Positions 7,081 to 21,008 of a stretch of DNA of 32,393 bases are shown piece after piece. The notes beneath the pieces were generated by a model that saw nothing but the letters and a program-made list of their open reading frames with translations, ran no database searches and was not told the DNA's origin. How positions within the stretch are numbered: the stretch's first letter is position 1; each line of letters starts with the position of its first letter. Source of the DNA: a virus; the IMG/VR virus record IMGVR_UViG_3300025030_000312, positions 1 to 32,393 of that record; one strand, given 5' to 3'. A program made the position numbers and the translations under genes.

Positions 7081-7829
7081 TTTTCCTGCCCAGGCGCCCA
7101 CTCGTAAATAACCTCAGCCTTTTCTCCAGCGTGAAGCCTCCAAGTCTTGCCGTCGAAACCAGGCACAACTCCCATCTCCCACAACTTCTGGCAAGGTTCC
7201 CAAGGGTTAGGGCCTAGTTTTTCAGCATATTTCCATTCGGTTATTTCGGGGAAGAACGAGGCAGTGTAGGCCCACACCGAGTCCCCCACCGAGTCCCCCA
7301 CCGAGTCCCCCACCGAGTCCCCCACCGAGGCCCGCACCGAGGCCCGCACCGAGGCCCGCACCGAGGCCCGCACCGAGGCCCGCACCGAGGCCCGCACCGA
7401 GTCCCGCACCGAGGCCCGCACCGAGTCCCGCACCGAGGCCCGCACCGAGTCCCACAGCTTCAGTAACTCGACCATCTCGGGCGTCACTTCAGGAGCGACA
7501 GGAATTTGATTAAACGGGTGAAAGATCTCCTTGATTCGCAAGGAGGGAACAATCGTTATAAAGTCGATTTTCCGGAGTTTTCTCTCTACGACTTCCGAGT
7601 CATCCTTTCCGTTGATTTGATCAATGGTGAATTTTCCGGTGAGAGGATTGAACTCGTATTTGTTCATCCGGTCCTCTTTGTCTCCTCTGAAGCCGAAGTA
7701 ATCAGCTATGGATGAGTGAGAGTCGGGCTCGTAATCAAGTTCGCCCGAAAGGCACTTCTTTCTGAGTTTCCAATCGAAATACCAGATGTTACCCTGTCCG
7801 TTCGAGATGCAGCTAAAGAATTCGCACAT
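7077..7829 (-). CDS. Tetrapeptide-repeat phage protein
   Basis: A 250-residue protein starting MCEFFSCISNGQGN behind AAAGGAGAAAAGTAAA; the longer frame upstream overlaps another gene and is rejected. The N-terminal ~120 residues (DSHSSIADYFGF, MNKYEFNPLTGKFTIDQIN) belong to a family of phage/prophage proteins of unknown function. Next come 15 tandem tetrapeptides of the form (R/G)(A/D)SV, residues about 126-185, encoded by a 12-bp repeat. The C-terminal domain (EITEWKYAEKLGPNPW...GVVPGFDGKTWRLHAG) closes the protein. The repeat keeps frame, so copy-number change would lengthen or shorten the protein without inactivating it. Confidence 0.8.
   Translation of the reverse strand: MCEFFSCISNGQGNIWYFDWKLRKKCLSGELDYEPDSHSSIADYFGFRGDKEDRMNKYEFNPLTGKFTIDQINGKDDSEVVERKLRKIDFITIVPSLRIKEIFHPFNQIPVAPEVTPEMVELLKLWDSVRASVRDSVRASVRDSVRASVRASVRASVRASVRASVRASVGDSVGDSVGDSVGDSVWAYTASFFPEITEWKYAEKLGPNPWEPCQKLWEMGVVPGFDGKTWRLHAGEKAEVIYEWAPGQEK
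7275..7454 (-). repeat. 15 tandem 12-bp units inside a coding region
   Basis: Units of CACCGAG(T/G)CCC(C/G/A) read on the plus strand: four CACCGAGTCCCC, then six CACCGAGGCCCG, then alternating T and G variants. They encode GDSV, RASV and RDSV. Block-wise variant order suggests recent expansion of single variants. Confidence 0.9.
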
Positions 7830-9739: not shown

Positions 9740-10152
9740 TTTCTTTAATCTAATGACTACCAGTGTCGCCACTTGTCTCATACCTTTCCTATCCGGTACA
9801 CTGTATAGCAAGCGCCGTATCTGGCGTTTAACAGGGTCTTTACATTCAGGTGCGTGGTATCACCTCCCCCGCTTCTAACTTCACAGTTATAAGGGGATAT
9901 TCCGCCTTTCCATTCTTTTACCTTGTATCGTCGGGTAGACTCCTATCTATAGGGTCTCATGTCTACTATCCTTTGAATTGGTACAAGTCAGAGAATGAAC
10001 GCGCTTAATCTTGTGGTGAACCCACCGGCGATAGGTAGTAGGTTCTAAAGTTTCATGCCGTAATGCGCGGCATTACTTGCGCCACATAACAGGATGCTAG
10101 GCTGTTATGTGTCACGCCTCAATAATCTCAATGAGCGGGGAAATGATGTAAA
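9740..10152. other. Non-coding, hairpin-rich region
   Basis: No convincing gene on either strand. It holds a GTAATGC-GCG-GCATTAC palindrome (10060-10076), a 10-bp perfect hairpin (CACATAACAG, 10083-10092, with its complement at 10102-10111) and a mirror-like CCTATCTATAGGG. No tRNA T-loop sequence was found. It could be a structured RNA, a replication or a packaging region. Confidence 0.5.
10083..10111. repeat. 10-bp perfect hairpin
   Basis: CACATAACAG ... CTGTTATGTG with a nine-base loop (GATGCTAGG). Confidence 0.7.
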
Positions 10153-10789: not shown

Positions 10790-11020
10790 TTCACATTTAT
10801 TTTAAAATAATTATTGTTGTGTAATAGCAAGTACTTATTAGGTCACACCCTACGACATGCCCTAAGTCACACCCTACGACATGCCCTAAGTCACACCCTA
10901 CGACATGCCCTAGGTCACACCCTACGACATGCCCTAGGTCACACCCTACGACATGCCCTAGGTCACACCCTACGACATGCCCTAGGTCACACCCTACGAC
11001 ATGCCCTAGGTCACACCCTA
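10790..11020. other. Candidate replication origin: AT-rich tract plus iterons
   Basis: Bases 10782-10830 are strongly A+T-rich, and seven 24-bp direct repeats follow from 10841. AT-rich DNA beside iterons is a classic origin layout, but no initiator gene is identified in the window, so this remains an inference. Confidence 0.4.
10841..11020. repeat. Seven tandem 24-bp repeats plus a half copy
   Basis: Each unit is (G/A)GTCACACCCTACGACATG followed by CCCTA. Copies begin at 10841, 10865, 10889, 10913, 10937, 10961 and 10985; a 12-base partial begins at 11009. Copies 2 and 3 start with A instead of G; otherwise they are identical. They could be read as an HTLRHALG octapeptide repeat, but there is no ribosome binding site. 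Confidence 0.9.
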
Positions 11021-11114
11021 GGGATCAGCTACGTCCTCACCCAGTGGGGGTGGGGTGAAAGTTCTAATGAGAGCCAGGCGCCCTTACCCATTCACTCACA
11101 CGCTACGAAGTAAA

Positions 11115-17982: not shown

Positions 17983-18849
<867 letters not shown>

Positions 18850-18884: not shown

Positions 18885-20129
18885 TTATAAATCAGAAAAC
18901 TTCTCTCCGAATTTATCAGCATCCTTCCTTCGCTGTTCCCGATCCACGAATGAGTACTTCCTGCTCATGTTGATATCGCTGTGATCGAGGAAATCTGCGG
19001 TTTTCCTAATGTCCTGTGTAGCTTGGTAGTAGAAGGTCCCGGCTGAGTGCTTGGTATCGTGGAAGCGCTTGTCTTCGAGCCCCGCTTCCTTTTTGACCTT
19101 CTGGAAAATGTTGTCCCAGTAGGATCTGGAGATGGGCACTTCTTTAGTTTCGCCGCAAAAGAGCCAAGGGCTTTCCTGTTCCTTCTTGGTTAGCCCCTCC
19201 AAGTAGGAATCCAGTAGGCTCCTAAGCCGAGGGATCATGTCCAGATAGTGCGTGTAGTCGCCACGCTTCCTCTTGCTCGCGGGGATGGCTAGAAGGTTTT
19301 CCTGGAGGTTCAGGTATTCCTTTTTTAATGAGCAGATGGTTTTTCTCCTGAGTCCTCCGAACGCCCCAAATCCAATTATTAACGAAGCCCTTTTATCTAC
19401 GAACTCCGCAGCCTCAAATAGCCTCGTCAATTCACCCACCGTGTAAAATTTGTCCTCCCTAGAATCGTTCTCAGGCCATGCAGAAACCGCCTGAAGCTGA
19501 TTATATTCCAGGTACCTCGTGTTATCCGGAGCTACGATCTTGGACTTCACGAAGCAGTTGATCATGTTGATGAGGGTTGACCTGGCACGGTTCACGGTCG
19601 AGTTTGAGTGTTTCAACTCGTCGCGGCAGTAGACCATGTAGGATTGGAGGTGCTGAGGCAGGAGGTCCACTACATAGACCGGGAGGCGGTCTGCAAGTTG
19701 CTTTGGGAGTGGCTTGTCCGACTTCCAACTGAAATCTCGGAAGAATGGAGTCAGGTTGCAGTTCAACCTCTGGACGTAGAAGGCGCGGGTGTCCTCGTTG
19801 GAGAGGCCTTGGAGGTAGGCGGTGTAAAGCTCTGCGGCTCGATCCCAGGTGAGCTTTTCCTTCTTCTGGTTCAACTTGAAGCGGTCGTCTACGATCTGGC
19901 CCAGGACTTGGTTGAGCCGGTCTTCCGCCTGTTTCTTGTGGATGCTGATTTGCTCCGCAATTTGCTTCCCCTCGAAGGAGTAGGAGACGCTCCAGAATTT
20001 GTCTGCTTCATTTGAGGTGCTCCCGCACTTCTTGCATGGAGGCAACTTCTTAGGAGGATCTGTGAACCGCTTCCTGGACCCACATTCGTAGCACCGGACC
20101 ACCTTAAAAATCGAACCCTTTTCTCGCAT
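18885..20129 (-). CDS. int: Tyrosine-recombinase integrase with N-terminal zinc ribbon
   Basis: A 414-residue protein behind AAGGAGGAAAGCTC. CYECG...CKKCGS (residues ~13-38) is a zinc ribbon. An SAM-like core-binding domain follows (residues ~90-200), then the catalytic domain: Arg I in GGLRRKT (R261), HDTKHSAG (H357, K360), LDHSD (H383) and RKYSF with the nucleophile Tyr392. Position 360, normally the second catalytic Arg (HxxR), is Lys; some phage integrases share this. Its own promoter (20150-20178) carries an operator in the spacer. attP lies just upstream of the gene. It integrates the phage into a tRNA-Gln gene by inference from attP. Confidence 0.93.
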   Translation of the reverse strand: MREKGSIFKVVRCYECGSRKRFTDPPKKLPPCKKCGSTSNEADKFWSVSYSFEGKQIAEQISIHKKQAEDRLNQVLGQIVDDRFKLNQKKEKLTWDRAAELYTAYLQGLSNEDTRAFYVQRLNCNLTPFFRDFSWKSDKPLPKQLADRLPVYVVDLLPQHLQSYMVYCRDELKHSNSTVNRARSTLINMINCFVKSKIVAPDNTRYLEYNQLQAVSAWPENDSREDKFYTVGELTRLFEAAEFVDKRASLIIGFGAFGGLRRKTICSLKKEYLNLQENLLAIPASKRKRGDYTHYLDMIPRLRSLLDSYLEGLTKKEQESPWLFCGETKEVPISRSYWDNIFQKVKKEAGLEDKRFHDTKHSAGTFYYQATQDIRKTADFLDHSDINMSRKYSFVDREQRRKDADKFGEKFSDL

Positions 20130-20149: not shown

Positions 20150-20178
20150 AATATAATTCAGACGTGAATGGAAGTCAA
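20150..20178 (-). promoter_or_regulatory. Integrase promoter with operator in its spacer
   Basis: Minus strand: TTGACT (20178-20173), 17-bp spacer, TATATT (20155-20150). The palindrome at 20156-20169 (ATTCAGACGTGAAT on the plus strand) fills the spacer next to the -10. Confidence 0.8.
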
Positions 20179-20188
20179 GCCCTTCGCT

Positions 20189-20211
20189 GCAATATTTGAG
20201 CAATAATTGAG
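20189..20211 (+). repeat. Arm-type site candidate 1 (23 bp)
   Basis: GCAATATTTGAGCAATAATT + GAG. Shares the GCAATA...CAAT(A/T)ATTGA frame with two copies further right. Confidence 0.6.
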
Positions 20212-20285
20212 ATTTCCCGAGTGTTCCCTATATTGGTTAAGTGGCTGGATTTGGTACTTTTATTTTATGGATTAGCTAGTTATCA

Positions 20286-20299
20286 ATTCAGACGTGATT
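20286..20299. promoter_or_regulatory. Near-perfect ATTCA-N4-TGAAT site
   Basis: ATTCAGACGTGATT. Lies in a gene-free stretch (20206-20377) that may encode a small RNA ended by the terminator at 20378. Confidence 0.5.
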
Positions 20300-20377: not shown

Positions 20378-20407
20378 AAAGGCCCTCTTGAATCAAGAGG
20401 GCCTTTT
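20378..20407. terminator. Intrinsic terminator left of attP
   Basis: AAAGGCCCTCTTG-AAT-CAAGAGGGCCTTTT, a 13-bp stem with U-run on the plus strand and AAA-rich start (T-run on minus). It insulates attP from the integrase side, or ends an unrecognised transcript of 20206-20377. Confidence 0.8.
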
Positions 20408-20450
20408 GATAACTGACTGATTTTATTACTTAATTCGGTTTTACCAAATA

Positions 20451-20464
20451 ATTCATTTGTGAAT
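20451..20464. promoter_or_regulatory. ATTCA-N4-TGAAT site overlapping attP
   Basis: ATTCATTTGTGAAT; its right half forms the end of the tRNA-identical segment. Confidence 0.55.
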
Positions 20465-20498
20465 CAGAATCCGTTGCCTTACCGCTTGGCGACACCCC
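20461..20498 (-). other. attP core: 5' half of tRNA-Gln(CUG)
   Basis: Read on the minus strand, from 20498: GGGGTGTCGCCAAGCGGTAA, then GGCAACGGATTCTGATTC. This is the acceptor, D-arm and anticodon part of a bacterial tRNA-Gln (anticodon CTG in TTCTGAT). Identity stops in the anticodon stem; the following ACAAATGAATT is not tRNA. There is no 3' half or T-loop, so it is not a functional tRNA gene but the typical footprint of integration into one. A TTGACA (20550-20545, minus) lies ~50 bases upstream and might supply a promoter after integration. Confidence 0.85.
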
Positions 20499-20532
20499 TA
20501 TTTCAACTACTTACGCCATTTATTTTTCCTTA

Positions 20533-20555
20533 GCAATAGTCTGTCAATAATTGAA
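20533..20555 (+). repeat. Arm-type site candidate 2 (23 bp)
   Basis: GCAATAGTCTGTCAATAATT + GAA, 35 bp right of the attP core. Confidence 0.65.
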
Positions 20556-20575: not shown

Positions 20576-20620
20576 AAAATGCCCTACCTCGCTTCGGTGA
20601 GTCGCAAGATAGGGCATTTT
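20576..20620. terminator. Terminator of the leftward RDF operon
   Basis: AAAATGCCCTA (20576-20586) and TAGGGCATTTT (20610-20620), perfect 11 bp, with a loop that can itself fold (CTCGCTTCGGTGAG). It ends in U-runs in both directions. Confidence 0.8.
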
Positions 20621-20625
20621 GAAAT

Positions 20626-20970
20626 TCATGTCAATATTCTTTTTCGTCTTTTTTTAGGCACGGGGTCTTGCCTGGATGCTTGATGAAGTGACTTCAATTC
20701 CTCCAGGAGGATTACCGGGTCAAGCTGCCATCTTCCCCTTGGCCCAGTCTTCCACCCCGTAAGTTCGCCAAGTTCCAGCTTTCCCTTCAGCCAGCGGTCG
20801 GATTTGTTTATTTTCAGAGAGGCTTGTTTCAGGCCAATCAGCAGGGGCTCTGGTCGGTTGGGGCTGAGGGCTTCGATGGCCGCTTGGAGAATTTTTAATG
20901 TTGCTGCGTGTACCTCGGCCTGAGCCTGGAGGAGCCCGAGGAGTGCTGCTGGGTCTGCTTGAATCTGCAC
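20626..20970 (-). CDS. Small HTH-like protein, candidate excisionase (RDF)
   Basis: GTG start at 20970 (VQIQADPAALL) behind GCAGGAGGGC, 114 residues; a longer start has no ribosome binding site. N-terminal helices (LLGLLQAQAEVHAATLKILQAAIEAL) are followed by LKQASLKINKSDRWLKGKLELGELTGWKTGPRGRWQLDPVILLEEL, which follows the MerR/excisionase-type winged-helix plan (recognition helix then a GPRGRW wing). The tail is very basic (KKRRKR). Location: last gene of a leftward operon that ends 130 bp from attP. Excisionase is an inference; a transcription factor is the alternative. Confidence 0.55.
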   Translation of the reverse strand: MQIQADPAALLGLLQAQAEVHAATLKILQAAIEALSPNRPEPLLIGLKQASLKINKSDRWLKGKLELGELTGWKTGPRGRWQLDPVILLEELKSLHQASRQDPVPKKRRKRILT

Positions 20971-20985
20971 TGGAAATGCCCTCCT

Positions 20986-21008
20986 GCAATAGTCTTGCAA
21001 TTATTGAA
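20986..21008 (+). repeat. Arm-type site candidate 3 (23 bp)
   Basis: GCAATAGTCTTGCAATTATT + GAA, overlapping the translation start region of the candidate excisionase, 490 bp from the core. If the same protein binds all three, it could also autoregulate. Confidence 0.6.

Follow-up and report, generated by a model that had tools for sequence, protein, structure and literature searches.

A block of 39 nucleotides on the minus strand of this virus record corresponds to the 5' half of a bacterial tRNA-Gln(CUG) gene, and very probably represents the tRNA-identical part of the attachment site (attP) of a temperate phage, whose integrase would recombine within the anticodon loop of the host tRNA-Gln(CUG) gene and whose own promoter would rebuild the tRNA.

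A tRNA-Gln 5' half beside the integrase gene

The window (the whole 32.4-kb virus record, classed as linear) carries the tRNA half some 330 bp upstream of a gene for a tyrosine integrase; that gene lies on the same strand and begins at 20129 (Table 1). The earlier note had read the minus strand from 20498 onward, GGGGTGTCGCCAAGCGGTAAGGCAACGGATTCTGATTC, as the 5' half of tRNA-Gln(CUG); this identification was borne out and extended to 39 nt (20499-20461), as base 20499 (A) is tRNA position 1. The block reads AGGGGTGTCGCCAAGCGGTAAGGCAACGGATTCTGATTC and is followed by ACAAATGAATT. Identity covers tRNA positions 1-39, ending two bases past the 7-nt anticodon loop, and breaks at position 40: past position 38-39 the host sequence runs CCGTC..., and that of the phage ACAAATG.... 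The 38-base half occurs once in the window, with shuffled sequences giving an expectation of zero even at three mismatches, and neither ARAGORN nor Rfam recovered a complete tRNA there. The attP block thus spans the tRNA from its 5' end through the presumed crossover, the 3' end not being carried.

The attP of a temperate phage is expected between the integrase and the structural genes. Beyond a small ORF on the other flank of the site lie genes for a sigma-like protein and a candidate terminase small subunit, followed by the terminase large subunit, portal, protease and capsid, so the place of the tRNA half, between integrase and structural genes, fits such an attP. An integrase gene adjoining a tRNA-identical block is itself a feature of tyrosine-integrase attP sites, in agreement with the assignment that the note had proposed. 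The small ORF is a possible excisionase by a weak profile match; no Pfam family was found for it at a threshold of 0.001.

The integrase retains R261, H357, H383 and Y392, all shared with the G177 integrase described below; in both proteins the HxxR motif is HDTK (K360), box II (HDTKH) having a lysine in place of the catalytic arginine. A zinc-ribbon-like segment (CxxC..CxxC) at the integrase N-terminus may be an arm-binding domain. Searches against annotated phages returned six partial matches, all below 40% identity; no close relative was found in the genome contig collection, and the integrase gave no alignment in the phylum genome sample. Elsewhere in the window, a tandem AGCAG-type repeat open on both strands (17985-18209) lies just before a PAPS-reductase-like gene (18157-18849), and short in-frame tandem repeats occur at 7222-7455 and 10814-11113, with SVRASVRD and GHTLRHAL units.

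Table 1. Coordinates of the attachment-site region in the window and of the related G177 element
Feature	Position	Strand	Basis or content
Tyrosine integrase, 414 aa	18885..20129	-	PF00589 E 5e-20; phrog_1
Arm-like repeat, integrase side, GCAATATTTGAGCAATAATTGAG	20189..20211	+	
Hairpin, 14-bp perfect arms, ~55 nt past tRNA half	20378..20406	-	-22.6 kcal/mol, z -4.9
tRNA-Gln(CUG) 5' half, linear positions 1-39, shared block of attP	20461..20499	-	sequence match
Inferred crossover region, tRNA linear 31-39, anticodon loop 31-37	20461..20469	-	sole tRNA sequence shared by 5'-carrying phages and 3'-carrying G177
Anticodon CTG of tRNA-Gln half	20467-20465	-	
15-nt leader GTAAGTAGTTGAAAT	20500..20514	-	identical in 6/6 phage contigs
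Candidate promoter P1, TTGACA-17-AATAAA, weak -10	20519..20547	-	consensus match
Arm-like repeat between P2 and tRNA half, holds complement of TTGACA (P1)	20533..20555	+	
Terminator-like hairpin and T run	20576..20620	-	-26.4 kcal/mol, z -5.9
Candidate promoter P2, TTGACA-17-TATCTT	20606..20634	-	consensus match; hexamers in 6/6 contigs (TTGACA or TTGACT)
Small ORF, other flank of attP, possible excisionase (weak)	20626..21000	-	phrog_1840 excisionase E 0.041
Arm-like repeat, third copy	20986..21008	+	
4.3-kb integrative element, G177	C2:19061-23342 (L186/L187)		integrase, 388-aa coiled protein with SH3-like end, 257-aa nucleotide-binding-like protein

Conservation of the arrangement in six phage contigs

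The same arrangement was recovered in five further viral contigs (L004-L008), whose integrases are 90-97% identical; a wider integrase search of viral contigs returned the same five again. Across the six contigs, three columns vary in the leader and the 39-nt half taken together, where the median 54-column window has 15 that do; conservation is as strong around the arm-like repeat before the integrase. The variation in leader and half falls precisely at tRNA positions 1, 31 and 37, which segregate into two versions: A1 with T/T (loop TTCTGAT) in the window, L004 and L008, and T1 with C/C (loop CTCTGAC) in L005, L006 and L007. With variation confined to these positions, the sequence seems to be under selection as far as the first base of the tRNA and further out, some 30 bp outside the presumed overlap.

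A related integrase at the same gene with the opposite half

Among the 277 genomes searched from the class of Geobacter sp. OR-1 (Desulfuromonadia), one, G177, encodes a full-length relative of the integrase (E 2.5e-130, 47% identity). Its gene directly follows an intact tRNA-Gln(CUG), whose 5' flank is host DNA, and the 3' 44 nt of this tRNA (linear 31-74) are duplicated 4.3 kb away, directly before a tRNA-Glu gene. By its sequence, the G177 element is a canonical 3'-half integration, and a relative at this distance integrated at tRNA-Gln(CUG) indicates that the integrase family does integrate in this gene.

The phage 5' block (1-39) and the G177 3' block (31-74) overlap only at 31-39, that is, the anticodon loop and two further bases, which we therefore infer to be the crossover region. 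The two systems thus have in common related integrases, the same tRNA gene, the anticodon-loop core and the orientation of the integrase relative to the site. With the integrase 3' of the site in either case, no reversal of the enzyme has to be assumed; it is the tRNA identity that extends to opposite sides. Unlike the phages, G177 carries the 3' half and has its intact tRNA at the integrase-proximal end; the tRNA-Glu now lies past the element, which offers a candidate promoter (a TTGACA-17-TATTTT promoter-like site at its end), and a second tRNA-Glu gene is present elsewhere in the genome.

Host tRNA-Gln(CUG) genes

Scanning GTDB contigs with the 39-mer, with W allowed at position 1 and Y at positions 31 and 37, we retrieved at least 120 stretches. 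The matches listed continue into complete tRNA-Gln(CUG) genes from many bacteria, a few ending at contig ends. Among these, positions 31 and 37 are both C (most) or both T (six) and never mixed, though the pattern permitted it; the phage bases are likewise both C or both T. Position 1 is T among the matches listed, with A only in Geomonas limicola and Megasphaera. The version with T1 and CTCTGAC is found exactly in many genomes, including Geobacter and relatives.

For the version in the window, the host search proposed in the earlier note succeeded in part. Without position 1, the 38-mer is exact in a Desulfuromonas and five gammaproteobacterial MAGs among the genomes scanned and the GTDB matches listed, but the exact 39-mer (A1 with TTCTGAT) was not found in the 277 class genomes, in 395 phylum genomes or among the GTDB matches listed. 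The companion search, for prophages ending in the tRNA half, recovered no integrated copy of the phage clade in the 277 Desulfuromonadia genomes, and the phage terminase had no match in 271 of this class, in a search run without a positive control. A Geobacter-type host is accordingly an inference. On Geobacter prophages in tRNA-Gln, or on the polarity of tDNA restoration, the literature searched offered nothing more. The suggestion that the 5' half may also serve to find the host found little or no support: the block looks like an ordinary att core, with no indication of an extra function and no genome found that carries the exact 39-mer.

The lack of a lysogen in these 277 genomes and of an exact host among the genomes scanned would suit a different origin of the half, as an unused relic of past recombination or of imprecise prophage excision in a phage that integrates elsewhere or never. 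We consider this unlikely: the arrangement is common to six contigs, few stretches are as conserved as the half and leader, whose three changes track host tRNA variation, and the integrase relative uses the same tRNA gene.

Promoters, hairpins and arm-like repeats around the site

If the phage integrates at tRNA-Gln, the rebuilt tRNA does require a promoter from the element, as the note had argued. All promoter and terminator calls here are consensus or folding matches. The TTGACA that the note had proposed as that promoter is present (20547-20542) and forms part of a good site in L005 and L007, where P1 reads TTGACA-18-TAAAAT (11/12) and lies 18 nt before the tRNA. As a promoter of the window itself it fares less well: the -10 is poor (AATAAA at 17 bp), the hexamer lies inside an arm-like repeat, and the closest relatives, L004 and L008, have TTGCAA instead, P1 being degraded in L004. 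P2, farther upstream, is the other candidate.

A terminator-like hairpin (20620-20576) lies upstream of the tRNA half and, on the folding prediction, would shield the half from the upstream gene; the expected start of P2 falls inside its loop, so that RNA from P2 would not form the hairpin. The second hairpin, past the tRNA half, could be the end of a tRNA-half transcript in the free phage. A consensus terminator scan of the window listed neither, although folding supports both. The palindrome ATTCA(NNNN)TGAAT, a possible repressor operator, occurs at 20153-20169, 20283-20299 and 20448-20464, with copies at the integrase promoter and one that runs into the end of the tRNA half (ATTCATTTGTGAAT).

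Three copies of a 23-nt repeat resembling integrase arm sites are placed around attP, where four of the six matches to the arm-like unit in the 32 kb cluster. Such repeats flank the site, and one covers the TTGACA of P1, which raises the question of whether the conservation reflects integrase binding only (core and arm sites), with tRNA rebuilding incidental. This too appears improbable, and marginally more so than a relic: the conserved block continues about 30 bp past the inferred 7-bp overlap, through the first tRNA base into the leader, whereas in G177 identity extends on the opposite side, so that the integrase family itself has no need of a 5' extension. A stable tRNA-half RNA made by the free phage, with a role of its own as a decoy for tRNA-cutting nucleases or glutaminyl-tRNA synthetase, would account for a promoter-half-hairpin unit that lacks an ORF, but it is highly improbable, having no precedent in the literature searched and adding nothing to a unit fully explained by tRNA rebuilding after integration.

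The predicted prophage and its rebuilt tRNA

Under our preferred reading, in which the phage integrates at tRNA-Gln(CUG) and restores the gene, the host promoter and 5' half would run into phage DNA at the integrase-proximal junction, forming no tRNA. At the integrase-distal junction, a phage promoter, the leader and the phage 5' half would join the host 3' half to give a complete tRNA-Gln(CUG). Hybrids built in silico behave in this manner: for each of the 34 intact host genes tried, ARAGORN identified the fusion of phage 5' half and host 3' half as tRNA-Gln(ctg), and no tRNA was recognised in the hybrids tested of host 5' half and phage integrase side.

The acceptor stem is perfect in 31 hybrids with the L005 version and in two with the window version (Geomonas type, A1-T72), the remaining hybrids having a position 1 mismatch or one G-T pair. 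The A1 of the window would face A72 in most hosts, T72 being present in only two genomes. Given that a perfect stem needs A1-T72 and that the loop is T/T, the window version would fit a host combining A1-T72 with a T/T loop, and none was seen among the genomes scanned.

The host gene order gives this arrangement further consequences. In 19 genomes tRNA-Gln(CUG) is followed on its own strand, after 32-103 bp, by a tRNA-Glu gene; of 16 genomes checked, 14 gave a single tRNA-Glu match (anticodon NTC, up to three mismatches). Often the gap leaves little room for a separate promoter, which makes co-transcription of the two tRNAs likely. In a further genome, G132 (C140:15931-16029, L145), about the first 47 nt of a decayed tRNA-Gln(CUG) remain, fused directly to tRNA-Glu. 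Restoring the tRNA only at the integrase-proximal end would cut tRNA-Glu off from its promoter. The 5'-half strategy would keep Gln and Glu together behind the phage promoter, and in Geobacter-type hosts the integrase-distal junction would re-attach the downstream tRNA-Glu to a promoter. The strategy thus plausibly rebuilds a two-tRNA operon from the phage promoter, as judged from one case of each kind. We raise tentatively the further possibility that an integrase family acting at a single site has changed from restoring the 3' half to restoring the 5' half, driven by operon structure: where the target tRNA heads an operon with the cell's only tRNA-Glu gene, a promoter and 5' half would allow integration that does not silence this essential downstream tRNA.

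Relation to known systems and implications

Carrying the 3' half is the majority strategy, as the earlier note had stated: of 3919 islands in Islander, 3760 have a 3' tDNA fragment and 159 a 5' fragment (PMC4383910). Islands with a displaced 5' tDNA fragment are also mentioned where PMC6563490 cites Zhao & Williams 2002. Elements that restore the 5' part are hence a known but uncommon class, and the phage belongs there. As in the Islander 5' islands, the 5' part of the tRNA comes from the element, which needs its own promoter, and the block ends at the anticodon (Islander site class A); here, unlike in those islands, the half is found in free phage genomes, in several related phages. The integrase-distal position of the half would put the rebuilt tRNA a long way from the integrase.

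Integrases of the archaeal pTN3/TKV4 type also use a tRNA 5' half as attB, and the rebuilt tRNA is split from its own promoter; integration splits the integrase gene, whose promoter then drives the tRNA (PMC8371274, PMC5495485). The phage would share the restored 5' half and the loss of the tRNA's own promoter, but its integrase gene stays whole and lies on the opposite side.

In mycobacteriophage tRNA-dependent lysogeny, the core is about 10 bp, the tRNA is not rebuilt and a full tRNA is phage-encoded (PMC10865867). Integration in a tRNA gene needing compensation by the phage is common to both. We nevertheless rejected this mechanism here: the core is 39 nt, not short, and the six phage contigs, which are possibly fragments, yielded no tRNA-Gln gene. 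An 82.6-kb contig of a related phage (L129) has only a tRNA-Thr(TGT) gene (10052-10124, minus strand).

In a limited literature search, we found no case of two elements with related integrases that use one site but carry opposite halves. The phages and G177 form such a natural pair at one tRNA gene, making the preference for 3' halves testable at a single site. Collectively, these observations suggest that the gene downstream of a tRNA, often the only tRNA-Glu, can decide which half an element carries, and that a resident prophage can own the promoter of essential host tRNAs.
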